Positions 3,001 through 61,845 of a stretch of 64,000 bases of DNA are shown piece after piece. A model generated the notes under the pieces. It saw only the letters and a list, made by a program, of their open reading frames with translations, was not told where the DNA came from and did no database searches. The position numbers were made by a program, and so were the translations under genes. Numbering within the stretch: position 1 is the stretch's first letter; every line of letters starts with the position of its first letter. Source of the stretch: Mesodorylaimus sp. YZB2_4 (lineage: Eukaryota; Nematoda; Enoplea; Dorylaimida; Dorylaimidae); NCBI GenBank assembly GCA_030248295.1, contig JASANH010001117.1, positions 62,001 through 126,000 on the forward strand, written 5' to 3'.

Positions 3001-6000
3001 AAAGTTTAAAACAGTGACATTTCCTGCAATTACTTCAAATGAAAAACCTAGCTTGAGCGAAACTAATCTGCACCCAAACTTCAGAATGGGTTAACTGAGC
3101 GTACCGTACAGTATGTGCCAATTTAGCACTCACATGAGCAACGACAGGCTACGTTTTCACCTGCCACATGTGCCCTGTGGGTGGTTTCCCCATCCCGCAC
3201 GCTCCAGTCATTCTATTAACCTCCTGCACTTCTCTGACGATGAGAGAATACTCACATCCTGCGGCATATTGAATTCGATAGCGTTGTTCCAAGCCACCGT
3301 CGAATCCTGGTTTCCACGTCAACAGTACAGCATTGTGAGTATAGTTCAAGATTTGCACATCCGTTGGAGTCTCGGGAACATCTGAAATAATTGATACTAT
3401 CGGTGGTTTATCAGTGAGTGCCCCGCGTTTGACGTTCTGACGCACCAGCACGCTCAAAAGGGTCTTCTATCCGATTCCGGCAAAAACGATTGTCGAACAA
3501 AAGACTTACCGACTGGTCCAAATTGCACGTCCATACTCTTCGTCCCCATCTCATTCTCAGCCAAGCAATGATAAGCGCCATGGTCTGAATCTTGGATATT
3601 TTGGATTCTTAGCTGGGTCTTTAAAAAACAGGATTTGTGAAACGCTAGCAGTGTCACCATGAATCAATAAACCAGACAACAGTAATCGCATTTAATTTTT
3701 AGCCTCTACCTGCCCAAGATTTTAGACAATAAACCAAGCACTGCTAGTACTAAAAGTTATTGCTGCAATATCTCCAAGACAATGTTTTCTATCATCCTAG
3801 CACATTTATACTCTTGATCTGACAGCCCGCCGACGATCCGAGGAAAAACTTTTCTATTAAATCGGCTAAAGTTTTTTGAATCAACACGAGCCACTTGAGG
3901 CTGCTCATTACATGCATGCCTGCTAGAACTTTAGCTAAGCCGAGCTTGACTTAAAAGTACTGCAAGTTTGCAAATTGTTATCAAGTTTTCTAGTGTCGGC
4001 TCTTTAATATAATCTGAAAACAGCGTGCAAATGAGACCCTAGAAGATATTGCTATTCACTAATACCGACCAAAAATTATGTTGAGAGCGAGATACAGTAT
4101 TTAGTCTACAAAATCTGAAGAACAAAGATACATTCCTCGCTGTTGCTTGGTTGAGCTATGAGCCTCTTCAAATGCATGATATCTGCTGGTTACAGTGCAC
4201 ACTGAACTGACTCCTCTTAATCGCTCATTATTAACACAAGCAAAGGGTTCAGAAGAAGCGAAACAGAAGGCCTCAGCTTGACGAACTGCTCATCGGAGAC
4301 CTAACACGTGCAACATAATCATCTTTAAGTGACGCATGAAACTAGCAGAAGGACCACGCACATTAAGCAATGTGAATTCGCAAACTGATGTTTCAAATCC
4401 TCAAACCAGCAATATGCGCAAAATGCATTAGATGCCCATCCTGACAGTGTTGATACACGTGCAAGTAGAATGTCAGTCTCAATCTGTTTTTCAGGCTGAT
4501 TTCTCTTCTCACAATAAACTTGCAAAAAAAATCTCCCCACTTACTTTAAATTTCATCAATCCAATTTGCATATTTGTAATTTGGACTCGTTCATCCTCCA
4601 CCACACGCCTGCTACTTTTCATGCCCATTCGTTCTTCATCTCCAACTGGTCTGTGCCAGCTGAACTTGACTTCGGGGACACCATCAGCCACGCATGTCAG
4701 GATGGCCTCCGCAGCCCCTGCATCAGCGGCTGACCGTCCCAATGTCAATTCTTGATCGAATATGGGCATCTCTGGAAATCAGCAAATCAGAGCCTTTACA
4801 AGTAGAACTCGCTTTCATCCCAGGAGAAAGCTTACTTCTGACGAGTACCACAGTCTTGTTCGTGGCACTCCCGATGCCATTATCAGCCTTGCAAGCGTAC
4901 TCGCCACTGTCCTCTTCCCGAATGCCCAATATAGTCAATCGATCCAGGCCATGGTTCGCCATTTCCAGATATCGATTAGAAGGCCTCAATCGATCGCCGT
5001 CGATCGACTGCCATCTGATCAAGGTCGAATCGAGAGGATAAGCATCAGCTTCGCAAGACAGGGTAAGATTATCACCAACCGAGGCGTACGTCTTTGGCGT
5101 TATGTATTTGATATATGGCGGATCTGGAATCGTCAAAATAATTGTAATAAAACATGCGCGACATGGCCTTCGTTGCGTAAGATTTCGTTCGCAGTCACGC
5201 CGAAGGTTGATTTTGCTCAGGACATCCTATCTCAAAAGATCACGATTGAGTGAAAATTATTCAAAAATTAGCTTAGATCAAGTTCTTAGTGATCCTTTTA
5301 ACACAGTTTTTGACCACCTAAGATTTTAGAATCACACTACTCCAAACACGGCACGCCAGAATAAGGGATCCTGACTGGAAAAAGATTCTGAAAATTGATG
5401 GACAACGAATAGTCAAAAAGGCCACACGGATCGTTCCTTCTGCCTAGTTCATTGGTCAACCAACAATGATCTGCCCGACGATCATAATTGGGTTAACTGA
5501 CCCACATGTTGAGCATGGTCACAATTACTATTAAAGTCAAGAACTACAGAGCTCGAAAATAAGCCGGATGATAAAAATTAATCCTGCTAGGCTTCCTTGC
5601 CGCCAGTGCCATCATTTGATCCTGTTATTCTGATGTCATCGATTACCCGCAGGACTCGAATATCTTTGCACCAGACACTTACACTTGACAGTGACGATAG
5701 CCTTCATCTCGGTCAGTCCGACAGTATTTTTGGCCCGGCAAGTATAAGTGCCAGCGTCGACGCGTCGAATATCGGCCATTTCTAATATGGCTCCATTTAC
5801 GGTCAGACGAGGCGGCGTGGATCTGAGGGCGAATGACGAGAACTCTTCTTTGATCCAAATATATTGATCGACGGATGGATTCGCGTGGGCCGTGGCATTT
5901 AAGAGTATCGATTCGCCCTCGAGCACTTCTATGGTTTGTACTAGCTGGCCGTAAAATATTGGCTTGTCTAAAAATAGATTCGGGTGCCAGTGGCAACTCA

Positions 6001-9000
6001 CTTGCCATAATAATTGAAAAATGGAATTTAAAATACATAAATTTTTGAGCAGCATAATATTGGACGTACAGTATAGCGCTGATATTCCTACTCCTTGGTC
6101 GGTCAAGTATTTGCGGCATCAAGTTGCAGTCGGACGATGACCTAGTAGTCCTTGCACTGTACAATGCATGCTTCAAGTGAAGTTGGAATTGCTATTGTAG
6201 AAACCTTGGGTCTCCTAGCGCGAAAATTAAGTATGACTTATTTTGATCATTTTGGTAACACTATGCGATAAATATCGGCCAATAATCAACTAAACGACTT
6301 GGCATAACAAAACCAATTATGAGATATGAAGAAGTAAACTGTAGAAGCAGTGTGCACGCTGTGTTGAAGCTGTACGAACCAATGGACTCAATTGTGACAC
6401 TGGAGATAAGGACTTACGTTGGACAGAAATGGCCACCTTCTCGCTAACCATAGCATTCATGGACAAAGTTGGTGTTGTTGCCCGGCATTCGTAGATGCTA
6501 CCATTCTCATCGACTGACGGCCTTAAGTGTAATCGTTTCCTGATCACCCAGCCTCCGTGACTGCCACTGAAAAGAAACATGTGCACATACTCCCTACTGA
6601 TTCTAAGAGGTGTATTCATATGGTCCCACTCCCCCCCCCCCCCCCATATGTCTGATTGTCTGATCGCCTGTCATTAGTTCAGCAATCAAGTCACATGACT
6701 TGAATAGCATTAATATACTGATCACATTGATGGCTGACCACACTAAAAGATTGCTTTCATGAAACAGTAGGCAGCAGTAAGCCATGTTGCACGACAGCAA
6801 CGAAGGTTCATCGGTGCATTCAAGTTGATGTTCCCATGAGGGCATGTAATGATGGGCTGCTTTTTCCATAAAGTTAGCCATGTATGCACCAAAGGTTTTG
6901 CATTCCTCCCAAAATCTCTGCAGACTCTTTCGTGAAAAACCAGCTCATCATTACGAGGACAAATGTGGAATGACATAATAGGAATACTGTAATTCCTGCC
7001 TAAAACATATCAGTAAATGATAATCTATCCTTGTGATAATGTGATCAGTTTTAGTGATTCGTGACTGATTAACTTCTCTTAGCAAACAAATTTTAGGCAA
7101 CACTGTGCCAGAAGCCATATTCGTGCACTTACGTTTTGTTGTAGGCCATTATACTTGGCAACGGTTTCTCGTCTTTATACCATTCGACCAGTGGACTCGG
7201 GTTTCCTGATCCACTATCGCATACCAATTCGGCCGAGGTATCCGCTTGGAAAACGGGTGGATCGGGTGATATTCGAACAAAGACTGGTGGAACTAAAATA
7301 GACAAAGCAATATAAAGTTCCCTTCGCTGGAAAACTTGTGGGCTCAAGCAAGTATAGGGACCACTCTTAAGTTGTCGATTTTGATCAAATTCTCCATGGT
7401 CTACGGAAATTTTGCAAAATCCTGCCGTATGATTATCAATTACTAGCTCTTGTGTTATGGTTGATGTTGTCTCCAAATTAGCAAAAATTACGCAGTTATC
7501 ATTTGTGCAAAATCAAGGCCCACAAAATTGTTTGTCACATAAATATATCATCGTTAGAATTCACAGCCTGTACAGGAAATAAAAAAGCGATAACCGCGAG
7601 AGAGGGTGTAACCAGGGCACCAAGGCGGCGAGACGTATGAAAGATCGAAGTATATAGACTTTGTTTGAAACATCAAGCACTGCACAGCATACTTTTGTAG
7701 AGCGGTAAGAACTATCTTCTACCACAGACATCGGACGAGTACAGCTGCTGCTTGATGTTACACACAGGGTGACCAGGATGGAGAAGGGAGTGCGTCACTC
7801 TCTGCTGTATCAAGTTGAAACTGTGCGATGCACATGCCGAAACAGATCTTCCTCTTGCAGGAGTTATGTTTCATAGAAGTTATTTCTCGCGGTTTATTAA
7901 GTAATGGTTGACTTCACTTGGATACGAGCACACTTAACAACCAATACTCCTACAAAATGATTTTGAGCAATATTGGCCCGTCACAGAGATATCTAGATAA
8001 ATGAGTTAGGCCTGTGTTATAAGATGGGGTGGGTCCAGGGACACACGACTTATATTTTGACCAATTAAAAAATCCCCTGCATTCCCGTAGCAAATATGGC
8101 TCTTCTTAAAATCTCCAGAAAATTTCACCCATTTCAATTTCCATCCTGGGTCAGTACTAGCGATCTACGTCCCGCCATAATGTTTTTGATGAAGAGGACA
8201 AGGAAAGGCATAAGCCATGCTCATTGAATATTCCAGGTATTGGACCTGATTCTAAAAATAAACCCCATTGCTCTTAGAAAAAACTAGTTGGAAATTAAGT
8301 GTCCCCTTATTGTCGTTAGACCACTTCAAAACTTAGATTTCTGCAGGTATCATTTAAGTTTGGTACTCCTTGTATGTGTTTTGAAAGGCGATCAGATTCT
8401 TTCCCACAAAACCAAGTACGATTCAAACTCTGTCTATCCCACGTGGGGCCTTGGTAGCACTTACACTGCACTTGCAAAGTGATCGTGTCCATCAATCGAT
8501 CACTTCCACTGGCCAGATTATAGGCTCGACATTGGATCTGCTCATTGTTGTGATGCGCAGCCACTGTCATGGTCAACTCGCTAATGGCAGAATTACCAGC
8601 ACCGTGCTTCGAAGATGTGCCGGACGTAACCTAAAACAATGATTTTTAACTTCGGACGGCAAAAAGATTTCTAAAGTGTGCGAATAAATAAACTAGAAAG
8701 TGGACTTGGTGTGAACTAGAAAGTGAACACATATATCAATGGAAATGGTAAATAGGTGCATCATGTAGCCAGGAGCACATGGCCATACAGCTCATGTTTC
8801 GACATGCCCGTCACACTTTAAGAGGGAAAGAAAAAGGGGGATGAAAAACGAAAATCAAAACAATTTCACTCAACCAGATATGAAATAATATGAAACTCAA
8901 CCAAATATAAAAAAAAAAGAAAAAAGAAACATCGAACGAACACGCGTGCAATAAAAAGTTTCCCGAGGCTCGGCATTGTCTTCCACAACATAGGGAACCA

Positions 9001-12000
9001 CAAGTGACAGTTTGACATTCAAAGAAATCCTGTCAGGTCTCAAGGCTAGAAAATCATCATTATTGCTAATCACTGATTTTGTAAGAGTCATATTGTCCGT
9101 GAGATTTTCCTGAGATTAAACCAAGGTTGTCCACCACGCACAATAAAGGCATATTGCGTTCTATGCACATAAGGCAAGTGCATAGTAGGAGAACTGCGAA
9201 GTGGGAACACACAGAAAACCTTGAATGGTACTACAACGTGCAAATGCTTCATAAATACTAGTCTGCCACTTGGCAAGAATTCAGCCTGATGATTCAAATG
9301 TTAGATCGAAGTTTGCATTGAGTGAAAAATCAAATCAAAATTAGCAAAAGTAAAAAAGATTAAGTGTGCCAAATCAAAGTACACTTGTATAGAAACACTT
9401 TAAAAAAATCAACTTATTTTCCTCATTGTTCAGGCGTGCACAGTGCAATGAAAGGGAAAAATATAAAACTTTAAAGAAGCCATCCAAAATCGATTAGTTA
9501 CCAAAGTCCATCGTTTCTGTCGTCTCGGGCTGATACTAGCGCTATCACTAGTAGTCGTGCCATTGCGCAAACGCTGCACAAATGCATAAGGGACACGTTG
9601 AGAAAAGTGTTAATGATTTGACGTTTTTTTGCATAATCTTTTTTCGCGCTCGACAGGCTTGAATTTCGTTTCTAACATTACTCACCCGCTTCTCATTCCT
9701 AAACCATTCCAATGTGGCAGCCGGATATCCACCAGTGGCTGTACACGTCACCAAAACAGTTTCGCCAGCCACAAATGGTTTTTCATCATTGTAGGTGATT
9801 TTGACAGTTTCGGGTGGATCTAAACAAATGAAACAATGTAGTCTGTACCCAAAAATGTGACATTGGATTCGGCAAATTATAAAGAATTTATGTCTCTGGT
9901 GTGCAGTTTGAGCTCATGGTTTTTAACATTGACCGGGCTAAGCATACTGCATCTCACCAACATGCTTGTACTGTAGCATAAGAGTCCATAAATTTGACCA
10001 GAGAAGGGACTCGTTGGTAGTTAATCCAGTATAGTAACTCCGCAGTTCATCTTTATATCTCCACAACGAATTCACTCGAACCAGTATCCTCTATGTTGTT
10101 TAAAGCCCGTGATTTCAGCTAATTTTTGTTCTTCAAGTAGTGCAAAAATGACTCCAAAAATCGTTCTGGTCCTGGCCAGCAAGTCCTACATGTAAAGCAT
10201 TCATGGTCCTGAGTATGCTGCTATGCATTTGACCATAAATAAAGAGTGAAAGAATGGCCTCTTTGTGTATCCAATGACTAATAAGACTGTTGGCTTACTG
10301 CATATATCTCACGGTCAGCCAAGCTTTAAAAAATACAGCAGATTGATTTAGCTGAATTTAAAAAAATGCGCTCAAATTGTGTCCTGCTTCATTCAATATT
10401 CAGTCAAAACCTAAAAAATCACTGCTACACTTACAGTATATTTTGACACTTTTCTGAGCCGTCGCCTCTCGTTTACTCGACGTTCGTGGCAAATGTTCAT
10501 TGCTCGATGTACAAAGTACAATCATCTCTGGTCTTGCTTGTGTTACTTGAATTTCGATCGTTGAAACTGATTCGATGCCTAAATCAAGCACGTTATCATT
10601 TGTGCAAAATCAAGGCCCACAAAATTGTTTGTCACATAAATATATCATCGTTAGAATTCACAGCCTGTACAGGAAATAAAAAAGCGATAACCGCGAGAGA
10701 GGGTGTAACCAGGGCACCAAGGCGGCGAGACGTATGAAAGATCGAAGTCTTCGGGACAACACACTCCAACTGGAAGAAGGCCAGTTCTCGACTATATTTG
10801 CCGCTGAAACATCAGCCGGAGTGTTTGACGTCGCCCAGCCAAGGGAGAGTATTGGACTGTCAGTAATTACAGTGACACTGCTTTCTACTGCTTCAGCTGA
10901 CGATGAGTAGTTGTAACCCGAATCCACACTTACCAGTTCCAGTGGTGGCGGGCTTGTTCCTCTGAGTATGATCGGTCCACGGTTGCCCGTTGATCATCCA
11001 ATCGATTTTTGCCTGTGGATGCGATGCTGTCGATTTACATTCGAATGTAATTCGATCGCCTAATGTAGCCTCGTCTGGTCCGCTGACTTCCACTTTTTCT
11101 GGCGGAACTGAAGTAATATACGGGTATGAAAGATTTTTTGTTAAAAAACTAATCACAAGAGAGGAAGCTAAAAACTTACAAAAAACCTTCAAACGGACAC
11201 TAGATGATAATGGAGCGACAGTGGCCAAATTAGAAGCCTCGCAACGATAATCGGCCTCGTTATCGATGGCTTTTACCACAAAGTCGTAATTGTTTCTCGT
11301 AAACTAAAAGAAGTATGGTGAAGCGGTGGCAGCTTTGGACTTCAATCGGGCTAAGATTGTTGGGTTCCTCACAGCCTGTCAGTCAGTACCTAAAATATTA
11401 TCCAATACCCCTTGCAGTCACAACATGCCCTTTAACAGTGAGAAGTCGCAAGCTCCAGGTTCCAAACTCACCCCTGTCACAATCGTAGAGTTACGTCCAA
11501 CGGGAATCGAATTCCGATACCAAACCAAATCAGGCGCGGGGTTTCCATTCTCGACCATGCATTGCAATTGAAGAAACTCGTCCGACATCAAAGTGCGACC
11601 AGCATCGTAACCACTTATGACAGGCACGCCAGGCGGATCTGAAGAAGATAATGTTTCAATTCAGGCGATAGGACTTTTTCGGCGCAGTGGCACTCTGTTG
11701 TCTGACAAAATGTTACAGTGTGCACAGCAAATGGCCCGATCAGAGCTGAGTGACTGGTGCTTCAATCAAGTTTTATTTATTTAATATTATCTCTTTTTTA
11801 CGATTCCGTTTTGCTACTCTCCATGGTTCTCCAAATCGGCAAGTAGGTAGGGGATGCCCCACTTACTGTAACTAATAAGCCCCTAGCCGATGTTCGCCGC
11901 CATTTTACATTGAATATTATCCAAATTAGAAATTTATCAGTTGAAATCAATAATCCGTTAATTGTGTTTTCACCTCAGTCGAAACAATTATCATTGAAGT

Positions 12001-49631: not shown

Positions 49632-52600
49632 TCATAACTTTGGAATAACATTTAATAATAGCTTTCTCAAATCAGCCACTGCCCGTTCGCTGGCATCAAT
49701 GATCTCTTCGTGCAAGCGCATTTCAGTCGGGGTCTTATCGTTGTGATTGAATCTAAAGAAAGCGATTGAGTTGGACCTATGCTCATGCTAACGAGATTTT
49801 CTAAAGAGGATTAGCAGACGATGGCTAGCCAGTCAACCTTCATCAAGTTTTTGTAACCTCAAGTCAGCTGGAAGATGCAAGTGCGGATTGATATTTTGTG
49901 CGAGATTGCATTCTTCGTTCATATTTGCTGCCATGGGCAACACGGAAAACATTGCGATACTTACACATCAGTAATGACACACATGGCCAATACTCGCATA
50001 CCGCAGTGTCGTGCCACCATCACTTCCAAACAGTTACTCATGCCTGAAAAAAAAGTAGAGATTTATATCGCCCCAGCAGACCATTACCACACACGAAGTG
50101 TTCACTCTGTCACTCCGTCCTACTGTATATTCAGCATGGAGACAGCGTCCCTGCAGTACGATTATTATTATAATCGACAATAGTGTGGTCATACTGTAGC
50201 TTAGTCATGACAGCACACTAACAGTGCCACTCATCAAATTTCAGCTCATATTAGCTTACAGACGTGTCAGCTCATTCAGCCTCTCTACTTACCAACAGCA
50301 TCGGCTCCGCACATTTTCAAAAACCGACTTTCAGCGTGAGTGGCATAGGCGGGGCCAGCTATCATGATATAGATACCTTGCCGCATGCGCCAGCCCATAT
50401 TCAAATGTGCTGCGCTTAATTTCACTAATTCCACGTAATTAGGATTGTAGCAATTGGCCATGTCCGGAAATCGAATACCAAATCTAAAAGTTAAAGCCAT
50501 TTGCGACTGCAACGAAATTAGTGGAATGGTGCAACTGCTGATTGATTTTATCAAACTATGTACTCTTGTCATTTTTCCCGCGTTCTAGCAAGTCTAAGGC
50601 GGACAAATTTGACCCTTTAGTGGGTGATGATCACGAATGAATCGTGTCTGCGTGATCAGAAACAGAAATCGTTCGCTGTCGAGAATAATTTGTGGTCCCT
50701 CATTAGGTCCTAATCCGGCTCTTGTCACAGCAGGTCGATGCCGTAAATCCTCTTCTGCATCCCCCACTTGACCCTCGGTCGATAGACGGGTGCAAAATAA
50801 CGTTCTCATAGCCAAAAGCGTGAGCAGAAAAGTAACTTGATGCGACATTTCGGAACAAAATTTCGAGAGAGAACTCGAAAGTCGATATCTTCGTTACCTT
50901 TCATCATTGACTCCGGTTAGCGGGTTCACTCCAGTTATGGCCGGTAAGCAGATGTGATCAGTAATGACCATTATGTCGCCTAATCGAAAATCATTGTTCA
51001 GACTGCCAGCTGCGTTAGACAAGAGCAAAATCTCGACGCCAAGCAGTTTCATGACACGAATTGGTAGTGTGCACTGAAATGTCGGAAAGGGTATTGTAGC
51101 TCCAGAATAAAATACATGCATGAAAGTGATCGTGAAGAATTTTTGCGAGAATGTGCGGAAAAATTGTTGGAAATTCGTGATGGTGACTAGAACCCGTCCC
51201 TGGATGAAATTGTGATCCGGCTTTTGTTAGTGCAGTAGCCTGGCGAAACTCGGCCACTCGTAGGCGGCGCCTGGTAGACCATGGCGAGTGGGAGGTTCCC
51301 CTGACTGCGAAACCTTCGGGTTGATGTTTAGCCGTAGGTATAGTCGCAAGACTTACCTTGCCCCAGTCGGAGGTTTTGTATACACTAGTGCTCCTACACT
51401 GGGCCAATACAAAAACGACTACCCCCGCAGCTGAAACCAGCTTAGGACAGATTCATTACTCTTTTCCACTCACCATTGCCAACCAAGCGCAGTGGTCACA
51501 TCGCAAAAAATTATTGGGTGCAAGGGAAACTTTCAAGTCCATAAGCTCTTGGCTTACCTCGTTTGGATGATAGCCTTCGTAGGTGTGCACTCTGCCTTGC
51601 ATGCACACCACGCATTTACCACCTAATATGCCAAAGACTAATCGACCTTTGTGTCCGAGAGCTAAAAATGATAACTATGTCAACGAGCCTGGCATAAAAA
51701 AAGCAAAAAAGCACCTAGTATACACTTCAACACACAAGATAGGTCCGATAAGTTGGGCAGCATTTGCACTTTCCGACAGACCAAAAATTCTCGTCTGGTT
51801 TTCCCGCATCCCAAACGGTGATGGAACACAGAAGCGATTTACCCGGCCGCGGGCCGAACTTTCGCTGGGATAAGCGCACCGAGGAAAGCAGGCGCCTAAA
51901 CTACTTGACCACAAACTGGGCTCACGATCAGAAGATCTCAAAGACAACCATGGCACGGCCTCCCCACGCATGATCTGACAGCGGAACCCCGCTTCAAAAA
52001 ATTTTGACTCGAGCTCTAATCGCGAGAGGCTAGAAGTTGAGACAAGCTTAACCTCATCGATTTGGAACCGCACGGGCAAGCTTGACTTGAAGAGTATCTG
52101 AAAAATCATTGGAGCGGGGTGCGTGGAGTGATAGCGTAGTGTTGTCGAACGACCAGATGGGGAGTAATGACACCGACTCGTGCATTTTTATGTGCAACTG
52201 ACATTGCTGGTCAGACACTGTTCTATCGATGATAAATTGGTATCTGCAGCTGCTGCTCCAAGCGATCATCGATCAGCTGCGCCATGAAGAGATTGTGGAC
52301 AAGTTTGCCTCCAACTCTGCTGCCAGACGGCAATGAACCTACCAAAATGAGTTTCCTATCTGGCGTCTGTCGTCTACGTTGTGCTGAGGGAAGTCATCCA
52401 CCTCACTGCACTGGCTCTAGTCCCGACAGAGCTTTATAGGAGTACTTTTTGAATAGTTTGGTAGTAACCGTGGACCAGCAGCAACGGTCGCTATGCAGCA
52501 GTTTAGCGTTTGTTTCTCCGTATTGCTTGGGAGCGAGTGGATGGGGTCGTCTCAGGTTCGATCCCTGGTAACGGAGGGCGGTTTGCCAACCATAAAACCT

Positions 52601-55600
52601 CGCTGACCTTGCACGCCAGGCCGCAAGTGACTCACTCGGTACCGCCGAGGTACTTTGAGTGGAGAGACGGAAGCCAAACGAGGAGACAGTCGCGGCTGCT
52701 TCGAAGCCCACCCGCCCATCGTAGAAGGAAGTCGGTGTGCAGTCCAGGTCCGGGATGCCCTCGCGAGCAGGTGCTCCTAATGGAGGCACGCAGAGGGACG
52801 CTGCTGTATGCTGGTCCCCGCACAGCCTTGTTTGGAAGGTTTGACTGCTGCCAGCTGGAGGCAAAAACTTGACTTGCCAGAATGGCAAAACTTTGTCACA
52901 ATTTTAAAGCTACAGGAAAAACGTGCTTCAGCTCAAAAATTTTTTTAAAAAGGTCTGTGACCTGTCCGACGATTCGGCCAGTCCGACTCCTGTTCTCCGA
53001 TTGAAAATGAAAGAAATGATCAAAACGATTCATGGGCTGGTGGGGTTTGAGACGAGTTTAGCGTAGTCATAAGTTGTGCCCATGAGATGGCCGGAAAGCG
53101 GAAAGGCAGCAGAGCAGCAGCATCGAGCAGGGCGATATTCACAATAAGGCAGCGGGAACCCGCTTCAAAAAATTAGTATCGAGCGCTAACTGTGAGCGGC
53201 TCGAAGTTGAGGCAAGCTCAACTGAAGTTATTTTGGAACTGAACCGACAGTCGCGACAGGCAAGCTTGACTTCAAGGGTATTTGAAAACTCATTGCAACG
53301 GGGTGTGGTGTGGATTAGGGGCTGCTAGCGTAATGTTGTTGGGTGACTAAGTTGACAGTGTGTTTGCTGGGCGAGCATATATTTGTGTATGGGATTGAAT
53401 ATTGTACTTTTCTATTCACAGCGTGGGATTTGAAGCCTCAATGATCATGATCGCATACTCGTACGCAAGGCGAAACGCGTGCGGGGATCGATATCATTAT
53501 TTCTAAAAAAATCTGTTATCAGACAACAAAAAGGTTAGCCCAGCCACCCTACTACAACCAAATGCGCGGAAAACGGGGTTGGCTGGGCTCCCTCGGCGGC
53601 ACATGCTTAAGTGGGATACTTATGTGGGCGTTTTTTTTCATGTTGCCTTCAGGGCGAGGCTCACAATCGTTTTCCCACACTCACCCACAACGTATGTCTC
53701 TGTGATGTACTTGGTACCTCATGGAGTCGTGGGGTCGACTCTCTGCGGGATTTCATCCTGTTTTTCACAAAAGGCTAGTACCCACATCACACTTATTCGT
53801 ATTTTGGAGTAAGTACAGAAGTTTGGAGTTTTTGAATACGATCCCCTTCTGTTACCTCGAACTCACTTGGGGAACAGAGAGGACTTGCTGCATTAAGGGT
53901 GCATCCGCCGTGACAGCACGAGTACTGTATGTCTAGCGCCAACCCAGTGATACTAGAACCGGAAATGCAGCTTCTGTGGAGCCAGCATGCTAATAGCTTT
54001 GGCCGTACAACCTTCAGCACTAGAACGACCATCAGCGCTTGTGTTTCCATCTCTCTATTCCCTGAATGAAGTGGCTAGGGTAGGGGACGCCCTCTTACAC
54101 TTTTTTAGTGACAGTAGCAATCCTATTTGATCACAATTTTCCTAAAACGCCACCGCAGGAGCCCAGCCAACCTCGTTTGCCTTGCATTTGTTTATAGTAG
54201 GGTGGCTGGGCTAACCTTTTTGTTGTCTGATAACAGATTTTTTTAGAAATAATGATACTTTTTCGCACCTAGGGCTAGGAATTCAGAATAGATGAAAGAA
54301 ATTTGTCGTCAGGTCCCTCCTGAGCTGACGCAAATTTCGTACAAAGAAGGTTCGCACGTAATGTTCTGTGACTGTGGCCTACTGCGCATAAGTTCCAGAG
54401 TGCCTGGGCTAAACAGCAAACTAATGCGGCTGTTGATAGGCGGGGGGTTTTCAAACTCTTAAAAAGCACTCCATTGCCGGCTGTGTCGCTTGCGCCAGCA
54501 AAGAAAACCAACATTCGAGTTATTTTCTGGTTGCAAACGGGCTCCAGTTACGCGACAAATATTCTTTGCTACAAAGAATGTTCAGTGGATCGCGAGAGGA
54601 TTTTTCAAAAACTTTTGGCTTAGAAATCAAATCAATAAAAAAAAGCCAACTAATCCACCGAACTAAAACAAAAAGTTCAACCAAACTAAACAGGACAGAA
54701 CACTCGTCTCGGCAAGTAATTTTAACGGAGGGTAACTACGGCTTAGAGAAACAGCACTTACGGGCGCCGCACGGCTAAGAAAAATATTCCGCCTGCTGGT
54801 GGTATGCGTTAAAATCCAGTTTTTCGAGCACAAAGAATTAATTAGCTCGAATCTTAAAATCACACCCTCAAAAGAATACTTCGCGCCATGAGAGCTTTCA
54901 GAAAAGCCAACTCTTTTGTCCGTAGCTTCAGTGGTTATTGCTGTGGACAGGACTTAAGTACTTCGTCGTCGTCGTCGTCGTCGTCGTCTTCCGTCGTCAT
55001 CTCTGGAACAGCAAAACGTGCATTTTGGATCTCAAGAACGGCTAAGCCATTTCCAACAAAATTTTGCACGATTATTGGCCATGGCAAACAAAGCTCATCC
55101 CCAAAATTTTGTGCCCTTTTGTTGATTTCTTGTCGAGTTATTGACGGGCAAAGTTGCCCGCTTAACATTGCACGTCTGTGTGGCTGGGCTAAACAGGCAG
55201 CTACCGTGCCTGTTGATCGTAATGTTGTCGAATGACAAGGTCGGCTGCGTGTTTGTAGGCCAGTAGTGGGACCGATTCGTACCTCTCTGCAACTGACATT
55301 CCTGTCCTTTTCGGACACTGTCCTATCAATATAAGTTGGTATCTGCAGCTGCTGCTCTAATCGTAAGATGCCAGACCATCTAATGACGCCAACGAACCTA
55401 TCAAAATGAGTGTCCCATCTCTCGTCTACTCTGTGCTGAAGGAAGTTCATCCACCTCATTGGCACTGCCCCGCATCCTTGGTCGCTAAGTCTATGCAAAA
55501 GCGAAAAGAGTCGCTTGCTCTCTGCGTCACCTTTTTATGGGGCCATCTGTTGCTTCGCGACATGAAGACAGCGACAGCGGCTCGAGTCCCCGCAGATCTT

Positions 55601-57797
55601 GGTAGGAATACTTTTAGAGCAGTTAGGCTGTTGAACCACGGACTGTGAGCAGCGGCCGCAGTGGTGTGCAAGGCGGTTCGGCATTCGGCATGGGCATTCG
55701 TCTCTGCGTATTGCTTGAGAGCGAGTGGCTGGACTCGCCTCCGGTTCAATTCCCGGCGTGATGGAGGTCGGCTTGCGGCCCATACCCCCCCTCCCAGCTG
55801 GCCCTGTACGCCAGGCCGTGGATGACTCACCCAGTATTGTCAGAGACGAAGCCAAACGAGGGCAGTCTCGGCTGTCAAACACCAGCGGGGTCACATGGCC
55901 ATAGCCCACTGCCATAGCTATAGCCCAAAGCATGAAAGTCTGTGCCTGTTCCAGGATGCCCTCGCGTGGAGGTGCTCCTAGTGGAGATGCACAGATGGAC
56001 ACTGCGGTGTATGCTGGTCCCCGCACATCGCTGAATTATTAGATTTGACCTGGCAAAACCAGGCTTTGGCCCAAAAAAGTTTTAAAAAATTGAACTGTGA
56101 GCAAGCCTTTGTCTTGTTCTTGAGCTTGAAAATAACAGAAGAGTGATCGCAAAGATTTTCAAAAAGACCTGCTAGCTAGAACCCCGCCAGGTAAGGTTCA
56201 GTCATAAATTGTGCCCATGAGATGTCCAGGAAGGGCAAAAATAGCAGCAAGCATGGGCATAATCAGCATGTGGCATGTGGAGAGGTCATCAGGATGGGGC
56301 ACGTGCAGCGGCAACCCGCTTCGAAAAATTCGTATCGAGCGCTAACTGTGAGCGGCTCGAAGTTGCGGCAAGCTTAACTGAAGTGATCTTGGAACTGAAC
56401 CGATGGTTAGGACAGGTAAGCTTGACTTCAAGGGTATTTGAAAAATCATTGCGACGGAGCGCGGCCTGGATTAGGGGCTGCTAGCGTAATTGTTGGATGC
56501 CGAGGGGGGGGGGGGGGAATTGTTTCTGGGGCTGAGACATATGTAACTATTCGCGGTACGGGATTTGAGACTAGGCAGGATGATCGTGTCCTCGTGAGAT
56601 AGGAAGGTTAGAACACTGCGAGTGACATGGTGGATGTCAGATTAGCGCAGGCACCCACTCACCAGTTGGAATAGGGAAACCGGGTATGTCCTTATAACTG
56701 ACCACGACTGCTTGTTCTATGGAGTCGGCCAGATCGGATAAACCAGATCCCACAACCATTCCAAGTGTTGGTCGATGTGTCGTTCGTTTTAATAAGTACG
56801 TTGCGATTTTTTGGCATACTTCGTAACTTTCACTTAAATATTTTAAATACAAAGAAATTTATTATATTCTTACATAAAAAACTCACGCTGGCTTTGGTTT
56901 TTTAGGAATAGTTTCCATATTCCCACTTTGGCCAAAAATTATGGAAATTTAAAAGAACAGGTCCCAGATTTTAGGCCAGCCCTACGGCATGCACTTTGAC
57001 CCATGCAAATTACGCGTAATTGCTCCCGCCTTTTCTAGCAGACATGCATGTCAGAGAGCCATAAAAGGTCATTGTGTTGGATGTGTGCACTGCGTGGCAG
57101 CTGGCTGGTGGCTTGTAACACGGCTAACAATGAAAGGTGTCGCTGGAACATGCAAGTCAAAGGTACATGCAAATATGATACACGATGACAGGATAATTTG
57201 ACACCTGCAGCTTGTGTGAAGGCACTGACATTGATGTGACTCTGTTGCCCCTTTCTTGCATAGCCATCACTAAATAGCACCTAGCTGACAAACCATGCCA
57301 TCTCGGTCCAGGTCTACTGTAGGCTAAGGTGACAGCGGCACTGCGGGTACACAAACTCCGACTACTCATGCTTCCGTCAACGACGCTTTGAGTGTCAGCT
57401 AGTTGCAACCACCAAATCACCCCACCAGCACCAGCGGATGTTCTGGGTGACTGAAAACTGGTCCTCAGTGTGGAAGCTTACTCGCAATTTATTCTGTTAG
57501 CCGTGAATGTGGAAGCTAGGTGGATAGCTAGTGGTAGCAGGGCGGCCAACAGGTGGCAGCTGGCACGACAAACTTCCACGTGTACCAACGGATGTGGGAC
57601 GGGCCATATTTGGATTGCGGTTGCTTGCCTAATGCGGAAGGAAAGGGGAGGCTGCGCGCAGAAAGTTGAATAAGTTTTATGATTTTAAATCCTGCATTTG
57701 GGGGCGGAAGAAAACTGGGAATTGGTAGTTTTAGCCGACACACTAAAAGCTTTTCTCCTTTTACAAATGTACGCTATTACAAATGTCCATTTTCCAT
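49632..57797 (-). CDS. PNP: Purine nucleoside phosphorylase (trimeric PNP/MTAP family) with altered base-binding residues
   Basis: Cleaves (deoxy)nucleosides with phosphate in purine salvage, in the cytosol. Exons (descending): 57797-57781, 56832-56663, 51661-51558, 51073-50898, 50483-50293, 50043-49965, 49752-49632. That is 858 nt and 285 residues (human 289); all phases fit. The 17-nt first exon encodes MENGH plus two bases, like the human start MENG; its donor GTAATA is weak, so this exon is slightly less sure. Phosphate and ribose sites are intact: [45 protein letters not shown]. At the base site, human SFET is AYAT (Ala203 for Glu201) and human ITN is ITD (Asp245 for Asn243). Substrate range is therefore uncertain. 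Intron 2 (51662-56662) is full of repeats. Confidence 0.92.
50594..50848 (-). CDS. Possible small secreted protein ORF inside a PNP intron
   Basis: An 84-codon ORF with a true ATG lies entirely within the PNP intron 50484-50897, on the same strand. It begins [19 protein letters not shown], which looks like a signal peptide, followed by a hydrophilic segment ([12 protein letters not shown]) and ending [14 protein letters not shown] exons join in phase without it (NDE-R-FGIRF), so it is not a PNP exon. I do not recognise it. It may be an independent small gene, an alternative exon or chance. Confidence 0.3.
   Translation of the reverse strand: MSHQVTFLLTLLAMRTLFCTRLSTEGQVGDAEEDLRHRPAVTRAGLGPNEGPQIILDSERFLFLITQTRFIRDHHPLKGQICPP
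51970..52170 (+). repeat. Tail module H, copy 1 (PNP intron 2)
   Basis: Contains CCCGCTTCAAAAAATT, a GAGCTCTAAT variant of the conserved GAGCGCTAAC, AGAAGTTGAG and CAAGCTTGACTT. It matches 53145-53345 and 56285-56490, and the reverse strand of 35330-35460. It is the most diverged of the three copies in this intron. Confidence 0.6.
52171..52429 (+). repeat. Linker module P, copy 1
   Basis: Shares GCAACTGACATT, the block around GGTATCTGCAGCTGCTGCTC, and GTCATCCACCTCA-like sequence with 55225-55470. It lies between tail and body modules in both places. Confidence 0.5.
52430..52955 (+). mobile_element. tRNA-headed SINE-like body module B, copy 1 (PNP intron 2)
   Basis: Begins near TGCAGCAGTTTAGCGTTTGT. 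It has a box B GGTTCGATCCC at 52555-52565, a GC-rich body with GATGCCCTCGCGAGCAGGTG, the block GGTCCCCGCACAGCC, and an A/T-rich end. It is homologous to 55680-56090 and to the minus strand of 35460-35725. Long open frames crossing it on the minus strand are repeat-derived. Confidence 0.6.
53145..53480 (+). repeat. Tail module H, copy 2 (PNP intron 2)
   Basis: Contains GTATCGAGCGCTAACTGTGA, the CGGCTCGAAGTTGAGG block and a trailing TGGATTAGGGGCTGCTAGCG. It is very similar to 56285-56610. Its right side runs into the inverted-repeat element starting at 53492. Confidence 0.6.
53492..54257. mobile_element. 766-bp non-autonomous DNA transposon with terminal inverted repeats of about 100 bp
   Basis: The left end reads TATCATTATTTCTAAAAAAA and continues with CTGTTATCAGACAACAAAAA, then GGTTAGCCCAGCCACCCTAC. 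The right end is its near-exact reverse complement, finishing at 54257. Similarity extends about 100 bp on each side with a few mismatches. No transposase is encoded between them. It sits inside PNP intron 2 and helps separate a tail module from the next repeat unit. Confidence 0.8.
54963..54987. repeat. GTC trinucleotide microsatellite
   Basis: About eight uninterrupted GTC units followed by imperfect ones up to about 54999, within PNP intron 2. Confidence 0.9.
55225..56090 (+). mobile_element. Linker plus tRNA-headed body module B, copy 2 (PNP intron 2)
   Basis: The part 55225-55470 matches the linker at 52171-52429, and 55680-56090 matches the body at 52480-52955, including box B GGTTCAATTCCC at 55743-55754 and the GGTCCCCGCAC block. 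The long minus-strand open frame across it is a by-product of the repeat. Confidence 0.6.
56285..56610 (+). repeat. Tail module H, copy 3 (PNP intron 2)
   Basis: Matches 53145-53480 over almost its whole length. A G14 tract (56504-56517) interrupts the right part. It ends about 50 bp before the PNP exon at 56663, next to the donor side of that intron. Confidence 0.6.
56833..57780 (-). other. PNP intron 1
   Basis: This stretch lies between the short first PNP exon and the exon starting at 56832. It contains no gene that I recognise. The acceptor (ATATTTAAG) has a weak pyrimidine tract. Confidence 0.5.
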
Positions 57798-57867: not shown

Positions 57868-60800
57868 ATGTCGTTATCGATATCATGTTCAAATTCTTTA
57901 TATCTCCTGGTTATTACTTTATTATTAGTCAAACTGTGCCCGGCACCCCCTGTTGACCAAAAACCACCTGCTCCGCCACCAAATGGAGAACAAGGAGGAC
58001 CTGATGACCCTGCTGTGAGTAAGAGTACTGTACTTTATGTCCATGTCAGAAATAGATTCAGGTCATTTATGATCTAAAAAACACGAAACTTTGCTAGCCA
58101 TATCAGCCAGGCATCTAGGAAAGGTTTAGATATCGATCGATCGGTAAAATCTGCGATCGATTTTTCTTTGATCAGAAGAAATTTCTGTCAGGGAGCGAAA
58201 TCGTAGCCAATGTGGTTTTTTCACGATCAGATCTTGAAGGGTCTGTCTTTTGGGCTTGCCCTGCTGCCTGTTTCTTCGTGTTTCCTATCAGTGGGCACTG
58301 ATTTCTGGACAGATCGATACATCAGACTGATCAGGCTGATCTATCGATCAGACCAGACAAACTTATTGATATAATCGGAAATCCTTGATCAGTGATCAGA
58401 AATGCAAGCCCCCAGATATACTTGATTTCTGATCAATCGATAACACATCTGTTTCGATTGAAAATATTTTTTAGCGCTTAATTGCAAACTTCGTAATTAA
58501 AAATCGAACTTAAATGAAGTTGCCAAAAAATAACTTTTTTGTATTTCAAAATCAGGTTGCTTTTTGTAGCATTTTAAAAATTGTGCTTTCTAGTTTTACA
58601 ATTTGGAATACGAACGATACTTACAAGAAGTGGTACAAGTTTTGGAATCGGATCCTGATTTTCGAGCGAAATTAGAAAAGGCTAATCCGGAGGATGTAAA
58701 GGTAAGATAAGAAATTATTACAGAATTTTTCAAGCTTTTTTGAAAAATGCATAGAAATTTTTATTATTCAGCTCTCTGTGAGCCAAAGATTTGAATTTCA
58801 GCTCTTGCACTAATTGCTAGTACAATTAAAAATGGTGACCGCAGTCCAAAGCTGACTGCGACTGCTCCCTTAACAGGGACAGTTTTGGCTTGGAATCGCA
58901 ATTACAGTATAGAATATTAAATAAATACTCATTTGTTTTTCCTCCAAGGACCCATGTGATTAATTATTCCCCTCGAATAGCCCCCCTGGCTGGTAATGTG
59001 GGGTACTTGTGCGAGAGCATGCGAATAGCCCGCCCCATGGACACCATGCCAGGATGTTTCTGATGTAATGCAAGGGTGTCCGCGCTCATTTTGTAAATAA
59101 AAAAGTAAGTTCTTTTGGAGAACTTCTTTGGCAAAATGAGTTGCACATTTTAATTTCCCTTCAAATATTGTTCCATGCGAACCTCGCGCCCATGTCACCT
59201 GTCCCTTGCCAAATTATGTCCAATGTGTGCCTCGGGCCCATGTGAAGTCATAATACCCCAGGCTGTAGCTGCGCCTCTCCTGTTATAGTTTAGTTCATAG
59301 GTTTACTTTGGTCATATGGCTATGGCCTCGGATATTCGAGTATTTGCGGCATTTAGGACTGCGAGGGGTCCTGAGATGGAAGGGGACTGGAGGGTAGGGC
59401 CTGCATCTATGTTTTCCATAGCAGCATCTGTTGTTTATTTGGGTTAAAAACTCGAGACCCCCATCACCAGTTCCCTAAGCACCGTATTCTGTGTGCACAG
59501 CAGTGTCCAACTTCCTTCACCTATCCACGAGTTACAGTATCACAGCCGACTCATATCCTCTTCTGGTTTCTTCACGACTGTCTACAGCGGTGATGGTGCA
59601 ACACTGGTAGTGTGTTAGAATGCATGGGTGTCCAGAGGAACGGGTTCGACTCCTCCTCAGACCTTAAGTTTTTGTAAGTATGTCCTGATTGATAGCTGTC
59701 TTATCTCTGAGAGATGATAAGAAATTTGAGGCAGCTTTGAACTTCAGCCCGCAGTCTAACGCGCTTTGCCCTTACTGTTACTATGTCAGTTGAATATCTA
59801 TGGATCCTGCGTGGCGATCCATAAAAAAGAATTAAGAATCTATTGCACTGGAAGCGTGCGAAAAGTTTAAAGTGAATTATTTGAAACCTCAGCTGTCCTG
59901 GTTCGTCAACTCCTGCACGACATCGAATTCTGCTCTTTTTTAGAGTGGAAAAATAGCTGAAGAATTAGATTTCTTGCATCACGATGTTCGATCGAAGTTG
60001 AACGAAATCAAACGACGCGAAATCGATCGATTACGTCAGGCATTGCGGGAACAAATGGAACGAGAAAATGGCGTGCACAATTTGGTCATGCCCAGTCATT
60101 TAGATCATGAAAATTTGGATACATTTGAAAAAGATGATTTGAGGAAATTGATTCATAAGGTGAGAAAATATCGATTTTTCTCGCTATTAATCGATTGATC
60201 GAGCACTTTTTGTAAATATACCACAGATTGAAAATTGTTAAAATCAACTAATGTACTCGCTAATTTTAGACAACCAAAGATTTAGAAGAATTAGATGCAA
60301 AAAGACGCGAAGAATATAAAGAATATGAAATGGAAAAAGAATTGGAATTTCGACAAAAATTGGCCAATATGACCGAAGAGGAACGACTGAATGCAACCAA
60401 AGAACGCGAGGAGGCTGAAAAGAGGCATCAGAAACATCCCGATTTGAAACACCCCGTAAGATTCCAGCGTACTTACAGCAGATCCTACAGTTTCTAAAAT
60501 TAAAACGTAGACTTTCAAAGAAAAAAGCGATTTTCTGGATGGAATGGGTGGGATTTGAACCCTGACTTATTTTCAGGGTAGCAAAGCCCAGTTGGAAGAA
60601 GTGTGGGAAGGTGTGGACAAATTGCCCAAAGACAGTTTCGACCCAAAAACCTTTTTCCAATTGCACGATTTGACTGGTGATGGTGTTTTGGACATTGGTG
60701 AGCTGGAAGCCTTGTTCCAGAAGGAACTTGATAAAGTCTATGATAAGAATAATCCCGATGACGACATGAGGCAAAGGTGAGTTGCAACTATGCTGGGGTC

Positions 60801-61845
60801 GTTTCTGCTTTTAGTGTTGTCTTGGTTTCAGGGATGAAGAAATGGCCAGAATGCGAGAACATGTGATGAAAGAACTGGACTCGAATAAGGATGGGGTCAT
60901 TAGTATGGTAAGTTGACATGCAAGGAAATCGAGCAATTCCTGCCCCTGGGAACGCAAAGGCGGGATTCAGCAGCATGGCAAACGGTAGGACCCAAAATGC
61001 CTGAGATTTGGGGAACATCAAAAAGCGCTCGGCTTTGTCGCTCGTAGAGTGCTCATATGCTTAGTTTGTCCAGCTGGGCATAGGTGGAGCGGGGCAGGGC
61101 TGAGGGGCGGGGCAGGAGATATGCCGCTCTGATGTTGCAATACGTCATATAATCATATTTTACTGAATAGGACGAATTCCTGGCTGATGCGAAAAAACCA
61201 GATTTCAATGACGACGAAGGATGGGAAACATTGGACAAGAAGAAAGTGTATTCGGAAGAAGACTTACGAGCATTCGCCGCTGAGTGGGCAAAGGCCAATG
61301 GAGTGCCCATGCCAAACATGGGCCCACCCTATGGGCAGTATCCGCAGCCTGGGCAGTACCCACAACCCGGTCAATACCCACAACCTGGTCAATACCCCCA
61401 GCCTGGGCAATACCCACAACCCGGACAGTACCAACAACACGGACAGTATCCCCAGCCTGGGCAATACCCGCAACCCGGACAGTACCCACCTCAACCTGGA
61501 CAGTATCCACAGCCTGGACAATACCAGCAGCTGCCGCAAGGTCAATATGCCCAAGGACAGCCACAACCACACGCGAACCAGCAGCAACAATTCCAACAAT
61601 CCCAAGGCGCGGGTCACCAATATCAGCAACACGCTGGTCAAGGACAGCCAGTCCAACAAGGACAACCACAGCAGACTCAACAACAGCAACAGTGGGTCCA
61701 ACAGCAAGTGCCACAACAGGCACATCAAGCAGGACAACCAGTCCCACAGGCCCCGAGTGGCCAAGCACAGCCTGGACAACCAGTCGGTCAGCCCCAGGTT
61801 GGCCAACCACAAATGGGACAGCAGCCACCACAACCACACCAATGA
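57868..61845 (+). CDS. Nucleobindin (calcium-binding, secretory pathway) with long Q/P/G-rich tail
   Basis: Nucleobindins are Golgi and secreted EF-hand proteins that bind calcium and G-alpha. Exons: 57868-58014, 58594-58701, 59944-60159, 60270-60455, 60577-60776, 60832-60907, 61171-61845. That is 1,608 nt and 535 residues, with all phases consistent. It has a signal peptide ([17 protein letters not shown]), a Pro-rich start, then [19 protein letters not shown] typical of the family. A charged, likely DNA-binding or coiled region follows ([20 protein letters not shown]), then long Glu/Lys-rich helices. Two EF-loops are present, [12 protein letters not shown] and [12 protein letters not shown]. 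Residues about 360-400 ([19 protein letters not shown]) match the conserved region after the EF-hands. The rest is about 12 PQPGQY-type hexapeptide repeats (61336-61550) followed by a Gln-rich stretch. The tail is much longer than in vertebrate NUCB1/2. Confidence 0.96.
58130..58445. repeat. GATC-dense patch in nucleobindin intron 1
   Basis: About 13 GATC sites occur in about 315 bp, many as TGATCAG or CGATCGAT, where about one is expected by chance. A smaller similar patch lies at 18600-18720. Confidence 0.7.
59590..59665 (+). repeat. tRNA-like SINE head in nucleobindin intron 2
   Basis: TGGTGCAACACTGGTAGTGT resembles a box A region, and GGGTTCGACTCC at 59643-59654 resembles box B at about the right spacing. 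No complete cloverleaf forms. Confidence 0.4.
61336..61550 (+). repeat. Coding minisatellite (18-bp unit, PQPGQY)
   Basis: Tandem copies of an 18-bp unit encode GQYPQP with occasional changes ([13 protein letters not shown]). Synonymous differences between units show it is not brand new. It lies in the last exon of nucleobindin. Confidence 0.9.

Follow-up and report, generated by a model that had tools for sequence, protein, structure and literature searches.

A purine nucleoside phosphorylase (PNP) gene in the window, the whole 64-kb stretch of nematode DNA analyzed here, encodes a protein in which both residues that recognize 6-oxopurines in trimeric PNPs are replaced, Glu201 of the human enzyme by Ala203 and Asn243 by Asp245. 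The protein is probably a working trimeric-type PNP with a base pocket that now suits 6-aminopurines instead of 6-oxopurines, and on the best reading of its sequence it would be a natural counterpart of the engineered human E201Q:N243D and yeast N256D enzymes. The two replacements had been read from the motifs AYAT and ITD in the initial annotation, and alignment with human, bovine, Schistosoma mansoni, iridovirus and own-genome PNPs placed them in the Glu201 and Asn243 columns.

The gene lies on the minus strand, from 57797 to 49632, and its seven exons (858 nt) form one open frame of 285 aa; locus, coordinates and spliced protein are as initially described. By reading, all six introns have a GT donor and an AG acceptor. 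Exons 2 to 7 are backed by homology, and exon 1, which is uncertain, by a start codon and GT. Exons 1 and 2 together measure 187 nt, the length (187 nt) of the single first exon of C36, one of two paralogs described below. The features are as follows.

57797-57781, minus strand: exon 1 (putative, uncertain), MENGHF; start codon and following GT donor, no homology support
56832-56663, minus strand: exon 2, phosphate loop GSGL (Ser35); homology
51661-51558, minus strand: exon 3, His66, Arg86, His88, Tyr90, Glu91; length (104 nt) and phase match both paralogs
51073-50898, minus strand: exon 4, NAAGSL (Ala118); 176 nt, equal in both paralogs
50483-50293, minus strand: exon 5, GPAYAT with Ala203 replacing Glu201; 191 nt versus 185 in both paralogs
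50344-50342, minus strand: codon GCC, Ala203 (human Glu201); sequence and alignment
50043-49965, minus strand: exon 6, GMSN and CVITDV, Asp245 replacing Asn243; 79 nt as in both paralogs
49969-49967, minus strand: codon GAT, Asp245 (human Asn243); sequence and alignment
49752-49632, minus strand: exon 7, ending in TGA, with the gate loop and RLHEE (His260, human His257); homology

Alternative splicing that would restore Glu201 or Asn243 was considered and rejected. Searches of the 64-kb window by tblastn with the window protein and both paralogs (E up to 10) yielded no duplicate of exon 5 or of exon 6, and no exon restoring Glu or Asn on the strand of the PNP gene. Matches in the window were weak: CLITDFF occurs twice (E 1.8 and 5.0), both times within an inverted repeat of the large intron, and GTGFET (56540-56596, E 4.3) is on the plus strand and therefore cannot be spliced into the minus-strand gene. 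The inverted repeat (53492-54257) has 109-nt arms, 92% complementary, with 548 nt between them, and resembles a small terminal-inverted-repeat element. Near it is a direct repeat of 186 nt (53149-53334 and 56305-56490, 89%). A nucleobindin-like gene (57868-61845, plus strand), whose exon at 59944 matches NUCB1_N, seems to form a head-to-head pair with the PNP gene, the two putative starts being 70 bases apart; by eye, the C-terminal part of the nucleobindin-like protein includes a long Gln/Pro-rich GQYPQP repeat (61171-61845). Elsewhere in the window, open stretches with immunoglobulin I-set/Ig_3 domains (4723-11303, minus strand) perhaps belong to one multi-Ig gene.

Comparison with family models placed the protein among the trimeric PNPs, with an NCBIfam PNPH (TIGR01700) score of 307.7 bits (curated cut-off 293.35) and a Pfam PNP_UDP_1 match of 160.6 bits, and outside the methylthioadenosine phosphorylase (MTAP) family, for which its score of 72.7 bits is below the curated cut-off of 274.85. 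Active-site conservation was evaluated over 24 residues taken from PMC9916683 (23 plus Phe159), of which 18 are kept, or 18 of 22 without Glu201 and Asn243. In human numbers, these are Ser33, His64, Arg84, His86, Tyr88, Glu89, Ala116, Ala117, Gly118, Phe159, Tyr192, Val217, Gly218, Met219, Ser220, Thr242, His257 and Glu259. The changed residues are Gly119 to Ser, Phe200 to Tyr (as in S. mansoni), Glu201 to Ala, Asn243 to Asp, Lys244 to Val and Val245 to Phe. The column of human Val245 is occupied by Phe247 in the window protein, by Ala in C36 and by Ser in the second paralog, C147, and in both S. mansoni PNPs. The AAGSL context of the Gly119 change also occurs in one PNP from a viral contig. 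The NH motif listed as retained in the initial annotation was misassigned: it seems to be Asn248-His249 of FNHNDK, and the true counterpart of the PNP motif NHEE is RLHEE, in which Leu259 replaces the Asn but His260 preserves the histidine of the human enzyme (His257).

Own-genome searches (assembly of 145 Mb, 1067 contigs) revealed two further PNPs, C36 on contig 36 and C147 on contig 147, of 294 and 295 residues. They are 75.6% identical to each other and each approximately 42% identical to the window protein. Both are canonical in carrying Glu and Asn, reading QFET and VTN, so that the second, canonical PNP envisaged in the initial annotation is present in two copies; the best PDB match of C36 is S. 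mansoni PNP1 (SmPNP1). The five introns of C36 and C147 correspond to the five inner introns of the window gene in position and phase (1, 0, 2, 1, 2), indicating that the three PNPs are paralogs and that canonical copies were retained. Common to the window protein and canonical trimeric PNPs (human, SmPNP1, C36 and C147) are the family score, most active-site residues and 41.6 to 44.0% identity, whereas Glu201 and Asn243 are present in the latter and both replaced in the former.

For the animal ancestry of the window PNP, the shared introns are better evidence than the trees, in which its branch is long (1.37, 1.51 and 1.45 in three trees). In the 25-row tree, a clade uniting it with the other animal PNPs was not rejected (p-AU 0.117), and the same holds for a clade with C36 and C147 (p-AU 0.0607). 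In a repeat run of the 57-row tree the window protein fell beside animal and iridovirus PNPs, though weakly supported (63/29); a single clade joining it to bacterial PNPs that lack Glu201 was likewise not rejected (p-AU 0.217).

The general integrity of the protein was assessed over 59 near-invariant columns, defined by conservation in at least 90% of 79 bacterial PNPs and, among seven further PNPs, in at least six. The window protein retains 54 and departs at five (Gly38Ser, Gly121Ser, Glu203Ala, Thr223Asn and Ser241Cys, in its own numbering); among left-out controls, departures numbered one each for human and bovine PNP, three each for C36, C147, SmPNP1 and the iridovirus PNP, and six for S. 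mansoni PNP2 (SmPNP2). Five changes among 59 such positions, a long branch and repeats in the large intron would suit a paralog of little or no activity that is retained for some other purpose, or a gene in decay, and trimeric PNPs are held to need Glu201 (PMC9916683). This reading is improbable given that 858 nt are open over seven exons with GT-AG sites, that 18 of the 24 active-site residues are kept and that SmPNP2 is active despite its six departures.

The likely consequences of the two replacements can be gauged from published enzymes. In canonical trimeric PNPs, N1 of the base is bound by Glu201 and O6 by Asn243, and the Glu201-N1 bond is described as "a must" for catalysis (PMC9916683). 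Wild-type Kluyveromyces lactis PNP has no detectable activity on adenosine, while its N256D mutant, which keeps Glu, is reported with a kcat/KM of 2.2e6 s-1 M-1 on adenosine and 1.6e5 s-1 M-1 on inosine and accepts adenosine, inosine, xanthosine and guanosine (PMC5074518). Adenosine is also accepted by human N243D, a result cited in PMC5074518, and is brought in by N243D of both the calf and human enzymes according to PMC6274182. Human E201Q:N243D, as an antibody fusion, is slow on 2-fluoro-2'-deoxyadenosine (kcat/KM 568 M-1 s-1) and reported to be weak on guanosine, with data not shown there (PMC2799393). The earlier expectation that an Asn243 to Asp change brings in adenosine is borne out by these K. 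lactis, human and calf mutants, E201Q:N243D included. The last (PDB 3gb9/3ggs; PMC2799393) is like the window protein in that both positions are changed, with Asp243 identical by alignment; it differs in being laboratory-made, in having Gln versus Ala at 201 and in having Val245 versus Phe247.

The range of the enzyme had been proposed as either broadened or shifted. Broadening would mean a PNP in which Asp245 admits adenosine, inosine and guanosine are still good substrates and water replaces the lost Glu. The four substrates of K. lactis N256D are in keeping with such a range, as is the frequency of PNPs combining Glu and Asp in the bacterial set (54 of 79), but these comparison enzymes keep Glu201, which the window protein lacks, and the human double-mutant fusion is weak on guanosine; a broad range is accordingly rated unlikely. 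A shift toward 6-aminopurines would fit better than broadening, since the N1-H of 6-oxopurines loses its partner when Glu201 is gone.

A parallel with SmPNP2 suggested in the initial annotation was refuted. Like the window protein, SmPNP2 is an additional animal isoform that accompanies a canonical PNP and has an altered base site; however, it keeps Glu203 and Asn245 and carries Ala118Leu, Thr244Ala, Ile246Asn and Pro257Ile, its cytidine activity being tied to changes other than Glu/Asn and cytosine being held by Glu203 (PMC6128611). The corresponding columns of the window protein read Ala118, Thr244, Val246, Arg258 (in the Pro257 column by reading of the alignment), Ala203 and Asp245, so that none of these changes is present, and its residues give no pointer to cytidine. 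More generally, the pocket formed by Ala203, Asp245 and Phe247 might serve some other substrate, either a purine nucleoside that is modified or damaged or, as for SmPNP2, a pyrimidine. Phe247 in place of Val245, the long branch (1.37 to 1.51) and the published view that substitutions around the pocket can alter PNP specificity (PMC6128611) are compatible with this idea, which is nevertheless given little credence because no SmPNP2 change is found and the cytosine-holding Glu203 of SmPNP2 is missing here.

The base site also has features in common with MTAP. In human MTAP and the S. mansoni adenosine phosphorylase/MTAP (PMC5147791), as in the window protein, the Asn243 column holds Asp and the Glu201 column a small residue (Ser178 by position in human MTAP), and Asp230 of the S. 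mansoni enzyme, which matches the Asn243 column, makes two hydrogen bonds to adenine (PMC5147791). By position, one of the three human MTAP residues Ser178, Asp220 and Asp222 is shared with Ala203, Asp245 and Phe247 of the window protein. MTAP differs in belonging to another family by score and in a second Asp absent from the window protein, which keeps the 5'-OH histidine; the contact of human PNP His257 with O5' has been likened to a 5'-OH contact (PMC5147791). Two own-genome loci are MTAP-like by reading (GPRYSS or GPRFST type, TDYDCWHE) and have Asp in the column of Asp245, and a further locus is uridine-phosphorylase-like by reading.

From these comparisons a mechanism can be proposed for the 6-aminopurine shift. 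Asp245 would contact adenine at N7 and N6, like its MTAP counterpart, and without Glu201 hypoxanthine would find no acceptor for its N1-H, nor guanine for its 2-amino group, which would make inosine and guanosine poor substrates. The kept His260 would hold the 5'-OH, pointing to adenosine or 2'-deoxyadenosine as substrate rather than methylthioadenosine. Taken together, Asp, a small residue in the Glu column and the 5'-OH histidine make an adenosine (deoxyadenosine) phosphorylase the best-supported assignment. The adenine product could then be used by the APRT-like gene of this genome, giving a route from adenosine through adenine to AMP with no deamination. This gene is in three pieces on contig 16, the best scoring 103.1 bits and none singly exceeding the cut-off of 185.85 bits. 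Several findings count against an adenosine phosphorylase. The 568 M-1 s-1 of E201Q:N243D is far below the value for K. lactis N256D on adenosine, in which Glu is kept; the second Asp of MTAP, two residues on, is Phe247 here; Gly119 to Ser falls within the active site; the lost Glu201-N1 bond is the one that PMC9916683 treats as indispensable; Glu-less bacterial PNPs, described below, lack His257, and in one of their 14 genomes no second PNP was found; and an A_deaminase-family gene (contig 63, two pieces) together with the canonical PNPs provides another adenosine route. The own-genome search returned no match to the FAMIN family (Cu-oxidase_4). The assembly also contains 15 COX1 matches on 11 contigs, contig 73 (L096) among them; one match is near full length, with TGA as its only stops. 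They represent either mitochondrial DNA copied into the nucleus or mitochondrial fragments that were wrongly assembled. A flatworm source, to which the SmPNP1 match of C36 might point, was set aside because a COX1 copy of the genome, possibly a nuclear one, agrees with AGA/AGG as Ser, ATA as Met and AAA as Lys when compared with COX1 motifs and genetic code tables.

To place the two changes among relatives, 79 bacterial PNPs were compared, parsed from the best 80 (L014-L093) of 148 relatives retrieved with the window protein as query, a non-random sample. Position 201 is Glu in 78 and Phe in one, while position 243 is Asp in 55, Asn in 19 and Ser in five, Asp thus being commoner than Asn; 54 of the 55 proteins with Asp keep Glu201. 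Asp alone is therefore ordinary among these bacteria and loss of Glu rare (55 versus 1 of 79). Viral contigs yielded no relative with a single-sequence query and two with an alignment query, both carrying Glu and Asp. The lone Glu-less protein (L068) is from a genome labelled Candidatus Tanganyikabacteria, and 98 genomes of its phylum were searched, 97 of which gave a match. The rows read were the 30 best loci and L099, the second PNP of the L068 genome, with ten weaker second copies in addition. The 31 rows (L068 being counted as L100) comprised 16 Glu/Asn proteins, 14 non-Glu/Asp proteins and one truncated protein with Phe. The 14 Glu-less proteins have Phe (11), Cys (2) or Tyr (1) at 201 and without exception Asp at 243, and they form one bacterial clade (L068, L101-L113; support 100/100).

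As a parallel in favor of the adenosine reading, this clade resembles the window protein in combining a non-Glu residue at 201 with Asp at 243 and in occurring beside canonical PNPs, since all 11 second PNPs read in these genomes (ten and L099) are Glu/Asn; of the 14 genomes, two (G030 and G051) had only partial second matches, and no second PNP was found in one (G048). It differs in having Phe, Cys or Tyr versus Ala at 201 and in the replacement of His257 by Glu or Gly. Across the bacterial, viral-contig and seven reference PNPs, Asp occupies position 243 in all 15 Glu-less proteins in which it is readable, the window protein included, and Asn in none. The Glu-less state requires two changes on the tree, although a single origin is also compatible with the tree tests, so the association with Asp rests on few events. 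An engineered enzyme carries a similar double change, one half of which, Asp at 243, is frequent among bacteria; at 201 there is no exact precedent, with Ala here, Gln in the engineered enzyme and Phe, Cys or Tyr in bacteria. No natural trimeric PNP without Glu201 was found in the literature searched, which consisted of titles and abstract starts and lay mostly outside subscription journals.

A fuller evolutionary account is put forward tentatively, as a serious possibility. The window gene may encode a natural, dedicated animal adenosine phosphorylase with a trimeric PNP fold, produced by double replacement in a duplicate while canonical copies kept the old job, with Asp243 being permissive and the absence of Glu201 excluding inosine and guanosine; the bacterial combination of a lost Glu with Asp would be a separate solution.

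Mutants have been used to study how PNPs discriminate between 6-oxo- and 6-aminopurines; natural enzymes in which both residues are replaced, occurring alongside canonical copies, would test the role of each residue. The FAMIN reaction was once thought absent from eukaryotic metabolism (PMC6978800). If active on adenosine, the window PNP would join S. mansoni MTAP (PMC5147791) and FAMIN (PMC6978800) as a direct route from adenosine to adenine in animals, and it might find use in the release of adenosine-type prodrugs, the aim of the engineered human enzyme.
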